Part shown: one piece after another, positions 2,148-26,868 of the stretch | Numbering within the stretch: the stretch's first letter is position 1 | Layout: each line of letters begins with the position of its first letter | Origin: a virus | DNA length: 57,774 nucleotides | IMG/VR virus record: IMGVR_UViG_3300044972_000988 | Span: 1-57,774 of that record | Reading direction: 5' to 3' (one strand) | Translations under genes and position numbers: made by a program | The notes under the pieces: generated by a model | Database searches by the model: none | What the model saw: only the letters and a program-made list of their open reading frames with translations | What the model was told of the DNA's origin: nothing

Positions 2148-3002
2148 ATGAAATTAAAAGTATCAGAACTATTCTATTCGGCACAAGGCGAAGGTCGCTT
2201 TATTGGTGTACCCAGTGTGTTTTTACGCACATTTGGATGTAACTTTACCTGTGCAGGTTTCGGGTGCCGGCCTGGTGAGAAAAGCACCGAAGCAGATGAA
2301 GTTGCCAAGAACGTACACTTGTACAAAACATTTGAAGAGCTGCCGCTTGTAAACACTGGTTGCGACAGCTATGCAAGTTGGCATCCTGACTTCAAAGAAC
2401 TCAGCCCTACATATGAGATTGATGAACTAGTAAACAAAATGCTAGACTTGATTCCTGACCGTCGTTGGACCAATCGCACAGGCAATGACACACATCTTGT
2501 GATCACAGGTGGTGAGCCATTGCTGGGATGGCAACGTACATATCAAGACTTGTTTGATCATGACGATATGCGTGGCATTAAGAATGTTACATTTGAGACC
2601 AATGGTACTCAAAAGTTACAGCCCAAGTTTAGAGAATATCTTAACACATGGCTTGCTGGACACAATGAACTTACATTCTCTGTCAGTCCCAAACTCAGTG
2701 CCAGTGGAGAAGCATGGGCAGAGGCAATTAAACCCGAGATTGTTGCAGACTATCAAAACTTTGGTACTGTGTATCTTAAGTTTGTGATTGACAGCGAAGT
2801 ACACTTTGAAGAAGTAGATCGTGCTGTGGCTGCTTATCGTGCCGCAGGATTTGAAGGTGTGGTATATGTTATGCCACAAGGTGGTGTTGTTGCTCCATAT
2901 GCAGAGAATCGTGTGAATGTTGCAGACTGGGCACTTGTGCGTGGATACTACTATACTCCAAGATTGCATGTGGATCTTTGGGGCAATGGATGGGGAAAAT
3001 AA
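2148..3002 (+). CDS. queE: 7-carboxy-7-deazaguanine synthase-like radical SAM protein (QueE)
   Basis: 284 residues. The N-terminus (SELFYSAQGEG.F.G.PSVFLR) is diagnostic of QueE, which converts 6-carboxytetrahydropterin to 7-carboxy-7-deazaguanine in the preQ0 pathway. ITGGEPLL (near residue 120) and ETNGT (near residue 150) are further family motifs. The cysteines are odd: C31xxxC35 is followed by GFGC40, and another cysteine sits in GCDSY (C72). The third cluster ligand may therefore be C40 or C72, with an insertion relative to the usual CX3CX2C. No queC, queD or folE partner is in the window, so these would come from elsewhere in the phage or from the host. MetK follows directly. Confidence 0.85.
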   Translation: MKLKVSELFYSAQGEGRFIGVPSVFLRTFGCNFTCAGFGCRPGEKSTEADEVAKNVHLYKTFEELPLVNTGCDSYASWHPDFKELSPTYEIDELVNKMLDLIPDRRWTNRTGNDTHLVITGGEPLLGWQRTYQDLFDHDDMRGIKNVTFETNGTQKLQPKFREYLNTWLAGHNELTFSVSPKLSASGEAWAEAIKPEIVADYQNFGTVYLKFVIDSEVHFEEVDRAVAAYRAAGFEGVVYVMPQGGVVAPYAENRVNVADWALVRGYYYTPRLHVDLWGNGWGK

Positions 3003-3012
3003 AAGGAAATTA

Positions 3013-4113
3013 ATGAGTTATCTATTTACAAGTGAAAGTGTATCCGAAGGACATCCGGATAAAATTGCAGATGCTATTAGCGATGCTGTTCTGGACTTGG
3101 TAATGTCCAAGGAAAATCCTGCACTACGCTGTGCTTGTGAAACACTAGTGACTACCAATCGTGTTGTGGTTGCTGGCGAATACAAAGGCATCTTACATGC
3201 CGAAGAAGTTGAATCAGCAGTACGCAGAGTTATCAAAGACGTTGGATACGAACAGTCTGGGTTTGATTGGCGCACTGTTGAGATCACCAATTTGTTACAT
3301 GGGCAAAGTGTAGACATTGCACTGGGCACAGACACATTTGGTGCCGGAGATCAGGGACTGATGTTTGGATATGCTTGTAACGAAACCGATACACACATGC
3401 CCAGTGCCATTTATTGGAGCCATCGTATTGTGGAAGAACTTGCACGACAACGCAAGGAACTGGGCATTGAATGGCTAGGCCCAGATGCCAAGAGCCAAGT
3501 GACATTTGAGTACAATGATGCTGGCACACCCAAACGCATCGCTAAAGTTGTTTGTTCTACACAACATAGCGATGAAATTGAAACAGCGTTACTCCGCAAC
3601 AAAGTAGAATCGATTATCCGTAATATTCTTCCTAAAAATTATATTGATAATCAAACTGAATTTTATATTAACCCCACTGGTAGATTTGTCGTTGGTGGCC
3701 CCGATGGTGATACTGGGCTTACTGGCCGCAAGATTATTGTTGACACGTATGGCGGGTATAGTCCTCATGGTGGCGGGGCTTTCTCGGGAAAAGATCCCAC
3801 TAAGGTTGATCGCAGTGCTGCCTACTTGACACGCTGGATTGCCAAGAACATTGTGGCCAGTGGTCGAGCAGATTGGGCAACTGTGCAGATCAGTTATGCC
3901 ATTGGCATGGCACAGCCCATGAGCTTTTACGTTGAAACAGACCACAAACCACAAAGTCGTGAATTGACCAAGTGGGTGCAAGACAACGTTGACCTAACAC
4001 CTCGAGGCATTATTGAACGGTTTGATCTCTTCCGTCCTATCTACAGTAGCACAACCAACTACGGACACTTTGGCAAAGACTATTTGCCTTGGGAAACTGT
4101 GGATTTATTCTAA
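3013..4113 (+). CDS. metK: S-adenosylmethionine synthetase
   Basis: 366 residues against about 380-390 in bacteria. Starts at MSYLFTSESVSEGHPDKIAD with a plausible RBS (AAAGGAAAT) upstream; a longer in-frame start inside queE is not needed. Family motifs are intact: GHPDKIADAISDA, GAGDQGLMFGYA, GGPDGDTGLTGRKIIVDTYG and the P-loop-like GGGAFSGKDPTKVDRSAAY. The enzyme makes SAM from ATP and methionine in the cytoplasm. With the SAH hydrolase at 25582 it would complete part of a SAM cycle feeding the phage's radical SAM and methyltransferase genes. Confidence 0.96.
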   Translation: MSYLFTSESVSEGHPDKIADAISDAVLDLVMSKENPALRCACETLVTTNRVVVAGEYKGILHAEEVESAVRRVIKDVGYEQSGFDWRTVEITNLLHGQSVDIALGTDTFGAGDQGLMFGYACNETDTHMPSAIYWSHRIVEELARQRKELGIEWLGPDAKSQVTFEYNDAGTPKRIAKVVCSTQHSDEIETALLRNKVESIIRNILPKNYIDNQTEFYINPTGRFVVGGPDGDTGLTGRKIIVDTYGGYSPHGGGAFSGKDPTKVDRSAAYLTRWIAKNIVASGRADWATVQISYAIGMAQPMSFYVETDHKPQSRELTKWVQDNVDLTPRGIIERFDLFRPIYSSTTNYGHFGKDYLPWETVDLF

Positions 4114-6906: not shown

Positions 6907-7330
6907 AGTCGTAGCAGACAAACAGTTTTGGATCTTACAAGAAGATGATCGCAAAGTTGGCAACATCGAAGCATGGAATGGCGGATATCAAGTTCGTATC
7001 AACAATCAAGTAAAGCAATTTAAAACAATCAAACTTGCAGCCAAAGAATCAAACATTGTATTTGCCAAAGAAGAAACAACATCCAAACCTGACAATACCG
7101 TGGTACACGGGTATCCGGTAGCAGGTCGTTGTTATAATCCTGTGTGGGACGTGGTGCATCACTTGCCAATTTATACCAAGACTGCCAAAAGCAAAAGTTG
7201 GTTTGCCGCAGGATGGTATTCTATCAAGCGTGGACGAAATTGGAAGATCATTCAGGATCCCAAACTGATTGCACTACAACGCTATCCTTACCAAGGCCCG
7301 TTTAAGAACAAAGAACAAGTGACACTATGA
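6893..7330 (+). CDS. Unknown conserved phage-type protein
   Basis: 145 residues. I do not recognise a catalytic motif. The first half has beta-rich repeats (DDRKVGNIEAW, GGYQVRI) and the second half has GYPVAGRCYNPVWDV and SKSWFAAGWY. It is translationally linked to both neighbours: its start lies within the 5'-nuclease gene and its stop overlaps the MazG-like start (ATGA). A replication- or nucleotide-linked role is suggested only by position. Confidence 0.7.
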   Translation: MLVAKVVADKQFWILQEDDRKVGNIEAWNGGYQVRINNQVKQFKTIKLAAKESNIVFAKEETTSKPDNTVVHGYPVAGRCYNPVWDVVHHLPIYTKTAKSKSWFAAGWYSIKRGRNWKIIQDPKLIALQRYPYQGPFKNKEQVTL

Positions 7331-12017: not shown

Positions 12018-12779
12018 ATGAAACTATTTGCCACAGTGTTTTTTTGTACAGTCTTATCCAATGCGGCGGCCCACGCACGTGAGCCCACTGTGTTGGTCTA
12101 CAACATCAATGCACAGCGCACGGAACTGAGCCAAAATAGTGATCAAATCAGATCAATGGCCAGTGTGACCAAGTTGATGACTGCCATGGTTGCATTGGAT
12201 CACAACAGAGATCTTCAACAGCAGTTGGTGCTGAGAAAAAACACTGGTAGTCGATTGCCGCCTGGCAGATACACCAGAGAACAGTTGTTGCTGGCCATGC
12301 TGGTTAGCAGTGACAACGGAGCAGCCGAAACCATTGCACAGAACTATCCTGGTGGCCGATCTGCCTTTGTGTCTGAAATGAATCGACATGCCCGGATGTG
12401 GAATCTTCAAGATACTAAATTTGTAGATCCTTCGGGGCTAGGTGTGTTCAATGTGACCACTGCACGGGATCTAGTAGAAATGGTACAGATTGCTGCCAGC
12501 TATTGGTTTATACAAGAAGCCAGCGGACAGTCTACTGTACAGTTAACAAAGTCGGATCGAACTCGTGGCAGCTCTGTGAATCTCATTCACACATCCCGTC
12601 CACTGTTGACAGAGTTTGACCGTGTAGACGTGAGCAAGACTGGATTTACCAATCTTGCTGGATGGTGTGTGGCCATGCTGGTAGAACACAACAAACAACA
12701 GTACGCAGTCATTGTATTGGGTGCCAGTTCCAAACTGGATCGCAGTGCAATTATAAAAAAAGTTTTTAAAAATCTTTAA
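12018..12779 (+). CDS. Secreted serine D,D-carboxypeptidase/endopeptidase-like protein (S11)
   Basis: 253 residues. A signal peptide is evident (MKLFATVFFCTVLSNAAAHA, cleavage near residue 20). All three penicillin-binding motifs are present: S49-V-T-K52, S98-D-N100 and K206-T-G208. It resembles the catalytic domain of PBP5/PBP7-type enzymes without the C-terminal membrane anchor domain. Such enzymes trim or cleave peptidoglycan peptides in the periplasm. Lying alone among tRNA genes, it may alter the host wall during infection (timing unknown) or assist lysis. Host acquisition is likely. Confidence 0.85.
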   Translation: MKLFATVFFCTVLSNAAAHAREPTVLVYNINAQRTELSQNSDQIRSMASVTKLMTAMVALDHNRDLQQQLVLRKNTGSRLPPGRYTREQLLLAMLVSSDNGAAETIAQNYPGGRSAFVSEMNRHARMWNLQDTKFVDPSGLGVFNVTTARDLVEMVQIAASYWFIQEASGQSTVQLTKSDRTRGSSVNLIHTSRPLLTEFDRVDVSKTGFTNLAGWCVAMLVEHNKQQYAVIVLGASSKLDRSAIIKKVFKNL

Positions 12780-18095: not shown

Positions 18096-19031
18096 ATGAA
18101 GAAAATTGTATCAACATTATTAACCGCACTTGTTATAAGTGTCAGCGCCACTGCAATGTCGTTTCCTGAGAAACCTGTACAACTAATTGTTCCCACAGGA
18201 GCAGGCGGCGGACTTGATCTTATCACAAGAACTGTGGCAGAAAAACTAGACGGAATCTGGAAATCTGGCGTTGTAGTAATGAACAAACCCGGCGGAGCCG
18301 CTGCCATAGCGTCTCAACATGTGATGTCGGCCCCTGCAGACGGGCATACAATTTTGTTCTACGCATCAACTGCCTATGCCAGTGCAAAACCATCAACAGG
18401 ATTTGATTACGAACAGCATTTTGAACCAGTGTCACATTTCTATTCTCCACAATGGGTATTGGTTACTAACAGCAAAAGAAACATCAAGAATCTCACTGAG
18501 CTAGCAGAACTAGGCAAACAAAAAGGACTAACATATGGTAGCACTGTAGCAGGAAGTCCTCTTCACATTTACGGATCATTGGCCATAGACAAGATGAAAG
18601 TCAAAGGAATTTTGGTCAACTACAAAAGTATACCTCAGGTAATTGTGGATATTTTAAACAATCAACTTGACTTTGCTGTTATCAGCTACGGTAATATTAA
18701 TCAACACATCACTGCCGGAACACTAAAGCCGCTGTTTGTGTTTGACAACAAGAAGTCAACTGACTTTCCAGATTTGCCTAATTTAACAAGTCCCGGATTC
18801 TCTGACTATCAAAACTTAGTGGCAGGATACAGTTTCTTTATAAGAAAAGACACTCCTCGGGAAGTGCGAGATCAAGTTGTCAAGGACCTGAATCAAGCAA
18901 TCAAACTGGCCATGCCTGAATTGGTTCAAAAACATCTGGTCAGTAAGTCTGGTGACTACAAATTAGATTTGCAAAATATCAAAACCATGGACCGCACGTT
19001 TGAATCATTTGCAACAAAACTCGGTCAATAA
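18096..19031 (+). CDS. Bug/TctC-family periplasmic solute-binding protein
   Basis: 311 residues with a clear signal peptide (KKIVSTLLTALVISVSATA). The mature part has the family layout: FPEKPVQLIVPTGAGGGLDLITRTVAEKL at the start, then NKPGGAAAIASQHVMSAPADGHTI, and a C-terminal FIRKDTPREVRDQVVKDLNQAI. Bug proteins bind carboxylates or other small organics for tripartite tricarboxylate transporters and are massively expanded in Burkholderiales. No membrane subunits (TctA/TctB) are nearby, so it would need a host transporter or act as a sensor or scavenger. An RBS (AAAGAAAG) precedes it. Probable host acquisition. Confidence 0.9.
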   Translation: MKKIVSTLLTALVISVSATAMSFPEKPVQLIVPTGAGGGLDLITRTVAEKLDGIWKSGVVVMNKPGGAAAIASQHVMSAPADGHTILFYASTAYASAKPSTGFDYEQHFEPVSHFYSPQWVLVTNSKRNIKNLTELAELGKQKGLTYGSTVAGSPLHIYGSLAIDKMKVKGILVNYKSIPQVIVDILNNQLDFAVISYGNINQHITAGTLKPLFVFDNKKSTDFPDLPNLTSPGFSDYQNLVAGYSFFIRKDTPREVRDQVVKDLNQAIKLAMPELVQKHLVSKSGDYKLDLQNIKTMDRTFESFATKLGQ

Positions 19032-21880: not shown

Positions 21881-21921
21881 CATGAGAGATGGTTGATTTC
21901 TCATGTAAATAACTGTACAAT
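21881..21921 (+). promoter_or_regulatory. ahpC-operon promoter with candidate operator
   Basis: TTGATT (21893-21898), 17-bp spacer, TACAAT (21916-21921). A perfect 7-bp inverted repeat CATGAGA/TCTCATG (21881-21887, 21899-21905) brackets the -35, as an operator would. Another palindrome, CTATGGC-A-GCCATAG, lies upstream at about 21848-21862. The downstream TACAATACACACATGC is shared with the promoter at 11278. Confidence 0.55.
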
Positions 21922-21976: not shown

Positions 21977-22516
21977 ATGAAAACAGTTGGCGACAAATTA
22001 GCCCCATTCGCAGTCACAGGTGTCCGTCCCGGACAACCAGAAGATGCTTTCTATACAATTACAGACGAATCGTTTGAAGGCAAATGGAAAGTAATTGTTT
22101 ACTATCCAAAAGATTTTACGTTTGTATGCCCAACAGAGATTGTGGCCTATGACAAGTTGGCATCAGACTTTGCTGATCGTGATGCTGTATTGCTTACAGG
22201 TAGCACAGACAATGAGTTTTGTAAAGTTGCTTGGCAAACAGCACACGCAGATCTAAAGAAGATCACCCATCATCAGTTTGCTGACACACAGCGTGGTGAG
22301 TTGAGCTTGATTGAACAACTAGGTGTGTTCTATACTCCAGCAGGTGCGGCATTACGTGCAACATTCATTGTGGATCCAAGCAATGAAATTCAACACGTTA
22401 CTGTGAACAACTTGAACGTGGGTCGTAGCCCAGAAGAAACACTTCGTGTATTGGATGCATTGCAAACAGGTGAACTGTGTGCATGTAACCGCACAGTAGG
22501 TGGCGAGACTCTGTAA
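21977..22516 (+). CDS. ahpC: Peroxiredoxin, AhpC type
   Basis: 179 residues. Start chosen at MKTVGDKLAPF, which has a strong RBS (AAAGGAGAT); the longer frame begins inside the promoter. Peroxidatic cysteine C51 lies in FTFVCPTE, with resolving-type cysteines C168 and C170 in ELCACNR near the C-terminus. It reduces hydrogen and alkyl peroxides in the cytoplasm. It is first in an operon ending with AhpD, the disulfide reductase that recycles AhpC in mycobacteria and relatives. It has its own regulated-looking promoter. Confidence 0.93.
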   Translation: MKTVGDKLAPFAVTGVRPGQPEDAFYTITDESFEGKWKVIVYYPKDFTFVCPTEIVAYDKLASDFADRDAVLLTGSTDNEFCKVAWQTAHADLKKITHHQFADTQRGELSLIEQLGVFYTPAGAALRATFIVDPSNEIQHVTVNNLNVGRSPEETLRVLDALQTGELCACNRTVGGETL

Positions 22517-23139
22517 TGTTAGAAACTATATGCGATACCTTGGTTGAAGCATATAGACGCAACTGGATTACCAGTCGTGATGGCAATGTGTCAATTCGTC
22601 ATCACGACCGTGATCATTTTTATATCACACCCAGTGGCGTCCGTAAGCAGACCATGCAACCTGACCAATTTAAAAAGATCAAGATTGTCAGCAGTTTAGC
22701 ATGGAGAGAAGAGCCTTACTCTGACATCAGCGCCAATCTCAAGCCCAGTGGAGAAATTCCCCTACATTTTGGCCTACAACGAGCAATGGGTCAGCACAGT
22801 ACTGATGTCAGGGTAGTGGTTCATCTACACCCTACCTACTGTGTAGCTGCCATGCATCGTGGTATTGAACTAAGCAGTCTTGCTGACAGCTTTCCTGAAC
22901 TTAGTCGCTATACAAAAGTGGCCAAGAACGTAGGCGACGTGCCTCCAATTAGTCAAGAGCTTGCGGATCGTTGCCATGAAAATCTCTGGCTAAGAAAAGA
23001 TGGCACTGTTGGTTTTGACATTGTGGGCATCAAAGGTCACGGTGTAGTTGCTATAGATACCAGCCCGTGGCGGGCATTTGAACACATTGAACGATTAGAA
23101 CATATTTGTCAAATCGTACTAGCATCAGGTAAATTTTAA
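22516..23139 (+). CDS. Class II aldolase/adducin-family protein
   Basis: 207 residues, overlapping the ahpC stop as TAATG. Family motifs: N-terminal DGNVSIR, FYITPSGVRK, PSGEIPLHFGLQRA (catalytic Glu), VVVHLHPTYCVAAM with the HxH zinc ligands, and the third histidine in GIKGHGVVA. The family includes fuculose- and ribulose-phosphate aldolases/epimerases and methylthioribulose-1-phosphate dehydratase (MtnB). With metK and ahcY elsewhere in the window, an MtnB-like methionine-salvage role is conceivable, but so is a sugar-phosphate role. Confidence 0.82.
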   Translation: MLETICDTLVEAYRRNWITSRDGNVSIRHHDRDHFYITPSGVRKQTMQPDQFKKIKIVSSLAWREEPYSDISANLKPSGEIPLHFGLQRAMGQHSTDVRVVVHLHPTYCVAAMHRGIELSSLADSFPELSRYTKVAKNVGDVPPISQELADRCHENLWLRKDGTVGFDIVGIKGHGVVAIDTSPWRAFEHIERLEHICQIVLASGKF

Positions 23140-23149
23140 GGAGAAAATT

Positions 23150-23839
23150 ATGTTTGGAACAAGTTATACAGGTGGGATCGCATATCGTTCTGCCAGTGAA
23201 ATCAACTCTGCAATGGGCCGTGTGTATGGACACATGAGTCTGGCTGTGATTGTGTCAATGTTTGTGAGTTACTTTGTGGGCTCTAGTCCAGAGTTGCTGG
23301 CATTCTTTTTTACAGGTGTAATGAAATGGATTGTGATCTTTTCACCACTGGCAGCCATCTTTGGTGTCAGCTATGTGCTAGGTAATAATCCTAGTAAAGG
23401 TGTAGCACAGTTATGCTTGCACGGCTTTGCAGCCTTGATGGGATTAAGTTTTGCTATGATCTTTGCTGTGTTCACCATGGGATCAATTGTGTCAGCATTC
23501 ATGGGTGCAGGCATCTTGTTTGGAGTGATGAGTGGCTATGGCTATTTTACCAAACAGAGTCTAGACAGCATGGGCAAGTTTATGTTTGTAGGATTGATTG
23601 CTATTGTCATTGCCAGCATTGTGAATATCTTTATCGGATCAACAGTGATGCAGATGGTAATTTCAGCATTGGCAATTATCATCTTCCTTGGCTTAACTGC
23701 TTACGACACACAGAAGATTCGTGAAGAACTCAGTATGGAAACCAGCGATTCAGCAGAAGTGCGTGGAGCACTGACCTTGTACATGGACTTTATCAACTTG
23801 TTCTTGAACTTGTTGCAGTTGTTTGGTGATAGAAAATAA
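23150..23839 (+). CDS. Bax inhibitor-1 / YccA-family membrane protein
   Basis: 229 residues with about seven transmembrane segments after a short cytoplasmic N-terminus. The family signature is ITAYDTQKI-like: LGLTAYDTQKIREE near residues 182-195. The C-terminal ALTLYMDFINLFLNLLQLFGDRK is typical of bacterial YbhL/YccA proteins. Bacterial members sit in the inner membrane; YccA modulates the FtsH protease and BI-1 homologs leak calcium. In a phage it may protect the membrane or tune FtsH, which is inference. RBS AAGGAGAAAA. It overlaps ahpD. Confidence 0.9.
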   Translation: MFGTSYTGGIAYRSASEINSAMGRVYGHMSLAVIVSMFVSYFVGSSPELLAFFFTGVMKWIVIFSPLAAIFGVSYVLGNNPSKGVAQLCLHGFAALMGLSFAMIFAVFTMGSIVSAFMGAGILFGVMSGYGYFTKQSLDSMGKFMFVGLIAIVIASIVNIFIGSTVMQMVISALAIIIFLGLTAYDTQKIREELSMETSDSAEVRGALTLYMDFINLFLNLLQLFGDRK

Positions 23840-24345
23840 TGGCTTTTATTGACGCAGTAAAAGGTGCATTGCCAGGCTATGCCAAAGATACCAAGTTAAA
23901 TCTTGATGCTGTACTGTTACGTAGCACACTAGATGCAGATGTGGCCATGGGTTGTGCTGTGGCTGCATTGGCTGCAACCGGCAACGGTAAAATCCTATCA
24001 GTAATTTTAGCAGATGCTCCAGTACACGCAGAGTCGGCAATGACAGCCGCAAGCATTATGGCACAGAACAACGTATGGTATCCCTATGTTGAAATGGCTG
24101 ATGATCCTGCATTGAAAGGATTGCCAGCACAGCTACGCATGAACGCCATTGCGTCACATGGCGGAACTACTAAGTCAAACTTTGAAGCATTTAGTTTGGC
24201 AGCAAGTATTGTGGGCCGGTGTCACTTCTGTGTGAAAGCACATTACGAAACATTAAAGACCGAAGGCTACTCTGTAGAACAACTTCGTGACATTGGCCGT
24301 ATTGCCTCAGTGATGAACTCGGTGGCAAAAGTCTTGAACAGTTAA
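23839..24345 (+). CDS. ahpD: Alkyl hydroperoxidase AhpD-like protein
   Basis: 168 residues, overlapping the previous stop as TAATG. The CxxC motif C128-H-F-C131 is followed by VKAHYETL with H135, exactly the AhpD active site (Cys-x-x-Cys-x3-His). The N-terminal half matches AhpD of about 175 residues. It reduces AhpC disulfides or peroxides directly. It is last in the ahpC-aldolase-BI-1-ahpD operon, followed by a new promoter for tRNA-Leu. Confidence 0.92.
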   Translation: MAFIDAVKGALPGYAKDTKLNLDAVLLRSTLDADVAMGCAVAALAATGNGKILSVILADAPVHAESAMTAASIMAQNNVWYPYVEMADDPALKGLPAQLRMNAIASHGGTTKSNFEAFSLAASIVGRCHFCVKAHYETLKTEGYSVEQLRDIGRIASVMNSVAKVLNS

Positions 24346-24357
24346 TCTCTATAGAGG

Positions 24358-24386
24358 TTGACAATTAACTTGATTTATTGTATAAT
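24358..24386 (+). promoter_or_regulatory. Sigma70-type promoter of the second tRNA cluster
   Basis: TTGACA (24358-24363), 17-bp spacer, TATAAT (24381-24386), a perfect consensus. It lies 18 bp before tRNA-Leu(TAA). Confidence 0.8.
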
Positions 24387-25366: not shown

Positions 25367-25573
25367 ATGCAAATATCAAGAGCCGAACAAAGTGCTATAA
25401 AATACAATCAAGAACAGTATCGGTTGGATCAGTCTCGGTTAGAAAAACAGCGGTCTGAAGATTATAGCCGTGTTATTGAACAACGTAGATTTGAACAAAT
25501 TATTGCAGATCGAACTAGTAGAAATCTTCGGTTAGATTTAGACAAAGGTCGACACATAGACATAGAATGTTAA
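25367..25573 (+). CDS. Small coiled-coil-like protein, 68 residues
   Basis: Start at ATG 25367 (a TTG five codons upstream is possible). Almost entirely charged helix ([22 protein letters not shown], shown in part), rich in Gln, Arg and Glu, likely a coiled coil. It overlaps an in-frame-shifted alternative ATG of ahcY and lies 8 bp before the chosen ahcY start. Function unknown. Confidence 0.55.
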
Positions 25574-25581
25574 AGGAAAAT

Positions 25582-26868
25582 ATGGATTACAAAGTTAAAG
25601 ATATCAGCCTGGCTGAGTGGGGTCGTAAAGAAATTGCCATTGCTGAACACGAGATGCCAGGCCTTATGGCCATTCGTCGCGAATACGCAGGATCCAAACC
25701 ACTCGCTGGTGCACGTATTGTGGGCAGTTTGCACATGACCATTCAAACGGCTGTGCTGGTCGAAACACTAATTGAACTTGGCGCCAGTGTGCGGTGGAGT
25801 AGTTGCAACATCTTTAGCACTCAGGATCAAGCAGCCGCGGCATTGGCAGTTGAAGGAATTCCTGTGTTTGCTTGGAAGGGCGAAACAGAAGCAGAATACT
25901 GGTGGTGCATTGAACAAACTGTGCGTGGACCAGATGGTTGGACACCAAACATGATTCTTGATGACGGACATGACTTAACTGGTTATATCCATGATCAGCA
26001 CCCTGATCTCATCCCTGGCATTAAAGGTGTTACAGAAGAAACCACAACAGGTATTCACAAGTTGTTGGAACGCATTGCCGCAGGCACACTGCGGATGCCT
26101 GCTATCAACGTAAATGACTCAGTGACCAAAACCAAGTTTGACAACCTGTACGGTTGCAGAGAAAGTCTAGTGGATGCTATCAAACGTGCCACTGACGTTA
26201 TGATTGCAGGCAAGGTTGCTGTAGTAGCCGGCTATGGTGACGTGGGCAAGGGCTCTGCACAAGCCTTGCGAGCACTTTCGGCCCAGGTCTGGGTCACTGA
26301 AGCAGATCCTATCTGTGCCTTACAAGCCGCTATGGAAGGCTTCCGTGTGGTCACAATGGAATACGCGGCAGACAAAGCAGACATCTTTGTAACTGCCACA
26401 GGCAACGTAGATGTTATCACACGCCAGCACATGGATCAAATGAAGAACAATGCTATTGTGTGTAACATTGGTCACTTTGACACAGAGATCGATGTTGCCA
26501 GCATCAAGGATTGTGAGTGGGAGAACATCAAGCCGCAGGTAGATCATGTTATCTTCCCCAGTGGCAAGCGCATTATCTTGTTGGCTGAAGGTAGACTGGT
26601 TAATTTGGGTTGCGGCACTGGTCATCCCAGCTTTGTGATGTCAAACAGTTTTACCAACCAAGTGATGGCACAGATTGACCTGTATAACAACACCAGTAAG
26701 TACGAAACAGGTCGACTGTATTTGTTGCCCAAGCATCTAGATGAAAAAGTTGCACGACTGCACTTAGAGCAGATTGGTGCAGAACTCACTACCATGACTG
26801 AAAAGCAGGCCGCATACATTGGCGTCACTGTTGCAGGTCCATACAAGCCAGAAACGTATAGATACTGA
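25582..26868 (+). CDS. ahcY: S-adenosyl-L-homocysteine hydrolase
   Basis: 428 residues from [18 protein letters not shown] with RBS AAAGGAAAA. Family motifs: [16 protein letters not shown] (substrate domain), the NAD-binding GYGDVGKG at residues 217-224, NIGHFD, and the C-terminal KPETYRY with the conserved Lys and Tyr. Length is in the normal range for the compact form. It splits SAH into adenosine and homocysteine, relieving product inhibition of SAM-dependent enzymes. Together with metK (3013) this gives the phage both ends of the SAM cycle. Confidence 0.96.

Follow-up and report, generated by a model that had tools for sequence, protein, structure and literature searches.

The virus record IMGVR_UViG_3300044972_000988, whose 57,774 bases are referred to here as the window, carries four open reading frames that the earlier note had read as a peroxide-defence operon, ahpC-aldolase-BI-1-ahpD. 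The four frames do form one tightly packed operon on the + strand, with Pfam matches to AhpC-TSA (2.4e-20), Aldolase_II (1e-27), Bax1-I (5.7e-53) and CMD (3.4e-10), respectively. Genes lying between ahpC and ahpD are called cargo below.

21893..21921, + strand: sigma-70-like promoter, TTGATT-17-TACAAT, 9/12 (motif scan)
21977..22516, + strand: ahpC, 2-Cys peroxiredoxin of the AhpD-coupled type, Cys51 with Cys168 and Cys170 (Pfam, PDB alignment, residue conservation)
22516..23139, + strand: cargo 1, class II aldolase/dehydratase-family protein (Pfam, profile scores)
23150..23839, + strand: cargo 2, BI-1/TMBIM membrane protein, Asp186 and Asp213 conserved (Pfam, YetJ alignment)
23839..24345, + strand: ahpD, CxxC (128-131) adaptor expected to reduce AhpC (Pfam, residue conservation)
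24358..24386, + strand: consensus sigma-70 promoter, TTGACA-17-TATAAT, 12/12, before the next unit, a tRNA gene cluster (motif scan)
24404: tRNA-Leu, first gene of that next unit, downstream of ahpD

Translational coupling of the four genes, also proposed earlier, agrees with the junctions, two of which overlap while the third is served by a ribosome site close by. The ahpC stop and the aldolase start share one base (TAATG at 22514, read from the sequence), as do the BI-1 stop and the ahpD start, and the 10-base gap between aldolase and BI-1 contains AAGGAG. The window also holds 25 tRNA genes and a tmRNA-like call, together with thymidylate synthase, exonuclease, a MazG-type pyrophosphohydrolase and a phage ATPase, and probably represents part of a jumbo-phage genome.

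The phage origin of the locus is of particular importance, since contaminating or misassembled bacterial DNA had been named as the finding that would undo the earlier reading. The gene families originated in bacteria, and the nearest named cellular AhpC found, in Collimonas and Herbaspirillum, is 69% identical. However, relatives occur on at least 599 IMG/VR viral contigs for each of AhpD and AhpC and at least 597 for each of BI-1 and the aldolase (the best 80 per gene being the loci examined), and the gene order recurs among them. These relatives include contigs of 300-357 kb that encode terminase, a gene present in 11 of the 14 records searched. One such contig (L006, 346,856 bases, encoding terminase) matches the window at 88% in ahpC, 97% in BI-1 and 95% in ahpD and has several neighbour genes in common with it, in the same order. 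In a tree of the pair, a quick one that carries a long-branch warning and leaves 55 of 136 branches open, a branch with support 100 separates the 108 phage pairs from 37 bacterial ones, which come from a Collimonas-related family and a few other sources. Of the 294 genomes of that family, 37 yielded an AhpD, with full-length matches at or below 55% identity. Contamination is thus refuted here and retains a vanishingly small probability. A host among the Burkholderiales is a reasonable guess, and the habitat, which we take from the sample numbers, is presumably lake water. Among 50,697 INPHARED phage records, AhpD has no relative, and AhpC and BI-1 have relatives in 18 and 9 records, all below 60% identity. 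No AhpC/AhpD or BI-1 of a tailed phage was found in the literature as covered by titles and abstract openings, with few subscription papers, and the words ahpC and peroxi are absent from PMC13037316, PMC7674155 and PMC12619734.

The complete active sites attributed to AhpC and AhpD are present throughout the phage pairs. In 108/108 pairs, the window included, AhpC retains Cys51, Cys168 and Cys170, and likewise a fourth cysteine, Cys82; AhpD retains Glu116, Cys128, Cys131 and His135. AhpC carries its peroxidatic cysteine in PxxxTxxC and ends in a Cys-X-Cys motif, as an AhpD-coupled 2-Cys enzyme should, and AhpD has the CxxC with a glutamate upstream and a histidine downstream. The best solved relatives of AhpC are those of Mycobacterium tuberculosis AhpC (2bmx, 4.4e-43, aligned through the C-terminal cysteine region), and M. 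tuberculosis AhpD (1gu9, 2.7e-24) provides the only PDB relatives of AhpD at that limit; both entries we take, partly from their codes, to be the mycobacterial proteins. Of the NCBIfam models, the AhpC equivalog TIGR03137 (109.6 bits, cut-off 272) and the ahpD subfamily TIGR00777 (117.4 bits, cut-off 191.95) score these proteins below threshold, and the AhpD core-domain model TIGR00778 scores AhpD above it (29.2 against 27.8 bits). For the experimentally tested pair of Burkholderia thailandensis, electron flow is reported from NADH through Lpd/SucB to AhpD, with peroxidatic Cys57 and two C-terminal resolving cysteines, Cys171/173, in AhpC and a CxxC in AhpD (PMC6626918). Every one of these residues is retained by the phage pairs (108/108).

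AhpC also appears to be under constraint. Among long phages its identity is mostly 82-94% (72-78% for G008) against 54-84% for TerL, and between most of the same phages AhpC is better conserved than terminase, fourfold sites being near saturation for both. Since AhpC identity is high despite these near-saturated sites, our own reading is that purifying selection probably keeps AhpC as a working enzyme. AhpC would then remove H2O2, organic peroxides and probably peroxynitrite, Cys51 being oxidised and then resolved by Cys168/Cys170; the Cys128-Cys131 pair of AhpD would re-reduce AhpC, and host lipoyl enzymes (SucB/Lpd with NADH) would re-reduce AhpD. Two small phage proteins could thus suffice to connect the removal of peroxide with the central metabolism of the host. 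By analogy with the bacterial systems, the pair is probably a phage peroxide reductase fed by host lipoamide enzymes.

The relationship of the pair to the genes between its halves was followed through 394 viral loci pooled from five scans. Both genes are present in 207 loci (196 complete, 11 partial), on the same strand in all 207, and removal of identical intervals leaves 107 distinct ahpC..ahpD intervals, the window excluded. Because the loci, which overlap one another, were selected by similarity to these same genes, gene presence is trivial, and it is the linkage and the mixed surroundings that are informative. In a neighbour-family control ahpC and ahpD are linked in 103/105, and the flanks comprise 639 families among 1602 ORFs. 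A conserved genomic neighbourhood was considered and rejected, since no flanking family apart from the pair and its cargo has more than 23 members in the 107 loci. An association with tRNA arrays was likewise set aside: a tRNA lies within 1 kb downstream in 12/102 loci and within 1 kb upstream in 36/102, the window's own being directly downstream.

In 43 of the 107 intervals the two genes are joined directly, mostly through TAATG, and in the other 64 they enclose inserts of 190-4289 bp, in which 26 ORF families combine in 32 ways. Inserts occur in 40/77 complete pairs retrieved via AhpD and in 46/71 retrieved via AhpC, which indicates that the high frequency of inserts does not come merely from retrieval with the aldolase. 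In 49/64 intervals the ahpC stop shares one base with the first cargo gene, and in 60/64 the distance from the end of the last cargo gene to ahpD is -4 to +12 bases; insertion therefore mostly preserves linked translation on both sides. In the 37 bacterial pairs, by comparison, the gap is 13-381 bases and never larger, with neither aldolase nor BI-1 within it, whereas 61/107 phage gaps exceed 390 bases. An ORF of at least 45 residues on either strand occupies 5/37 bacterial gaps, all of them small (Fisher test, phage against bacterial ORF-holding gaps, p 8.6e-7, not corrected for relatedness). The conserved unit is ahpC-ahpD alone, and aldolase and BI-1 are cargo.

This unit may have its own means of expression. 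The 9/12 promoter-like site of the window is by itself no better than chance (the window has 11 such sites against 7.1 expected). Among 100 distinct phage stretches, sigma-70-like sites of at least 10/12 occur upstream of ahpC in 44, mostly 60-100 bases ahead of the start, against a shuffled background of 9.2%; over half of the loci are without a site of this quality. A Shine-Dalgarno-like motif precedes ahpC in 106/106. The pair would accordingly be transcribed from its own sigma-70-like promoter, and genes in the slot would share the ahpC-ahpD message, usually starting on the ahpC stop codon.

The cargo is varied. Across the 107 intervals the families comprise aldolase (47 members), a 211-residue protein of unknown function (15), an SGNH/GDSL hydrolase (14), a small protein (11), BI-1 (7), PsiE-like (5), TerC (5) and HNH-type (3) proteins, and single cases of alternative oxidase, cytochrome c, serine hydroxymethyltransferase (SHMT), a NUMOD3 protein and sugar-nucleotide genes. 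The aldolase lies between ahpC and ahpD in 46 of the best 80 of its viral relatives (at least 597). No substrate can be named for it, its scores being below every named-family cut-off: it gives 48.4 bits against the 137.05 of TIGR03328 (MtnB, methylthioribulose-1-phosphate dehydratase), and only the wider Aldolase_II family accommodates it. The 211-residue protein, represented by L006:7369-8004 in the nearest long relative, where the slot reads ahpC-BI-1-unknown-ahpD, has no Pfam match, and structure predictions for it and for the aldolase have a mean pLDDT of 34. The alternative oxidase (PF01786, 9.7e-76) stands inside a phage peroxide cassette at L054:2836-3447 and has relatives on 394 viral contigs; in the best 80 of these the aldolase is found in four further alternative-oxidase loci, besides the cassette itself.

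BI-1 matches the Bax1-I domain over its full length (180.2 bits, cut-off 34.1), its solved relatives are YetJ structures, and Asp186 and Asp213, kept in 61/61, align with aspartates of YetJ that we take to form a calcium-leak gate. The suggestion that it modulates FtsH finds no support beyond a weak profile score, 37.6 bits on the YccA model NF007765 against a cut-off of 353. The gene most often found directly before BI-1 elsewhere (12/58 distinct BI-1 loci) is similar, as far as the sequences tell, to the MazG-type gene of the window at 7327. With this as the most frequent preceding gene elsewhere and the BI-1 of the window in the slot, BI-1 seems to have moved into the slot here. A reading frame that we take from its sequence to be ClpP-like lies within 4 kb of BI-1 in 15/58 BI-1 loci (e.g. 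L138:1256-1876). BI-1 could have a role in membrane or proteolysis control, and the ClpP-like neighbour might bear on the latter.

On the tree of the pair, the change between insert and direct junction is needed 13 times, and presence of the aldolase changes 17 times, of BI-1 6 times for 7 carriers, of the unknown protein 14 times for 15, of SGNH 12 times for 14 and of TerC 2 times for 5; these are upper-end estimates, as weak branches inflate them. Identities of AhpC and AhpD are weakly correlated (r = 0.31), and in 526 locus pairs AhpC is at least 92% identical while AhpD is at most 80%, as expected if the two halves recombine separately, or likewise if AhpD changes faster in some lineages. 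Recent transfer of a cassette between lineages was considered for G013 and G005 (TerL 33%, AhpC 93%) and rejected: only 45% of fourfold sites are identical, which makes purifying selection the explanation for much of the likeness in AhpC. The near-saturation of fourfold sites means that any exchange was not recent, and vertical descent may account for some of the pattern. Endonuclease-like genes occur in the slot (HNH family 3, NUMOD3 1), and we propose that phages exchange cargo, probably through recombination within the conserved flanking regions, with homing endonucleases helping.

Taken together, these data favour a phage-encoded peroxide reductase with a slot for exchangeable genes at the ahpC/ahpD junction, to which we give a probability of roughly 0.7. 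Of the earlier interpretation, the AhpC-AhpD antioxidant pair in a phage operon is retained, and aldolase and BI-1 as fixed stress-response partners are not. A fixed four-gene operon, in which AhpC, AhpD, aldolase and BI-1 jointly counter oxidative and membrane stress, has in its favour that a search of phage data for the order ahpC-aldolase-BI-1-ahpD, as the earlier note had advised, found it in three further distinct intervals (L013, L082 and L083), that the junctions are tight, and that other cargo (alternative oxidase, cytochrome c, TerC, PsiE) is also of redox or membrane type. Yet 43/107 pairs are empty and BI-1 occupies only 7 intervals against the 47 members of the aldolase family; of the best 80 viral BI-1 relatives (at least 597), 8 sit in the slot, and the other 72 are found in loci that, over up to 6 kb on either side, contain no ahpC and no ahpD. 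We consider such an operon improbable.

The purpose of the slot is a separate matter. Beyond the slot itself, we tentatively entertain that ahpC-ahpD serves large phages as a dedicated cargo bay, a phage-specific and strongly conserved redox pair that doubles as a standing swap site for genes supporting infection. If so, swaps would span distantly related phages, and the contents of each slot would list the host stresses that its phage meets. One may equally imagine a neutral insertion site, a harmless and well-expressed junction whose contents have no common purpose, next to a pair that is ordinary peroxide defence; the endonuclease-like and sugar-nucleotide genes, SHMT and the very mixed flanks would fit this possibility, which we also hold at less than even odds. 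However, the recurrence of the aldolase, with its 17 changes on the tree, and its company with alternative oxidase outside the cassette suggest repeated selection of particular cargo.

A phage peroxide reductase with an exchangeable slot resembles several known systems in part. With the AhpC-AhpD of Mycobacterium and Burkholderia it has in common gene order, cysteine pattern, CxxC adaptor and near-full-length homology, but the phage version is a separate clade with gene cargo between its halves, its direct junction is an overlapping TAATG where bacteria have a gap, and its AhpD, distant from all sampled bacterial AhpD, reads CHFC where Mycobacterium has CSHC, which places the histidine one position earlier. 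Phages are known to carry auxiliary metabolic genes for redox balance, such as the cyanophage plastoquinol terminal oxidase. Like other redox auxiliary genes (e.g. prxU of the Microcystis phage MaAM05), the pair is phage-borne and expected to act in the infected cell, but it would constitute a two-protein electron relay, with an AhpD without relatives among the phage records searched. Phage insertion hot spots and the mobile gene cassettes of T4-type phages place variable genes, endonuclease-like ones among them, between conserved flanks. The ahpC/ahpD slot does the same, but is located within a functional operon of two genes and in most cases retains the stop-start overlap of ahpC. The window BI-1 has the full-length Bax1-I domain and two aspartates of the TMBIM family and bacterial YetJ, and a viral precedent in the GAAP of poxviruses (PMC6163359). 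Unlike YetJ and GAAP, it is in a tailed phage, adjoins peroxide genes and is known here from sequence.

If these readings are correct, peroxide removal driven by host NADH, with a possible benefit during infection, would be added to the functions of large phages, in a group of at least 599 contigs that has no AhpD-bearing isolate among the INPHARED records. The slot would also offer a simple route to uncharacterised phage genes co-expressed with a redox pair, such as the alternative oxidase and the 211-residue protein. Elsewhere in the window, a TctC-type periplasmic receptor lies at 18096-19031, with no adjoining transporter recognised. The same phage record encodes both S-adenosylmethionine synthetase and adenosylhomocysteinase (2917-4113 and 25567-26868) as well as radical SAM/SPASM proteins at 48-57 kb, possibly a set for SAM supply and recycling. 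Finally, a wall enzyme, D-alanyl-D-alanine carboxypeptidase (Peptidase_S11), is encoded at 12018-12779.
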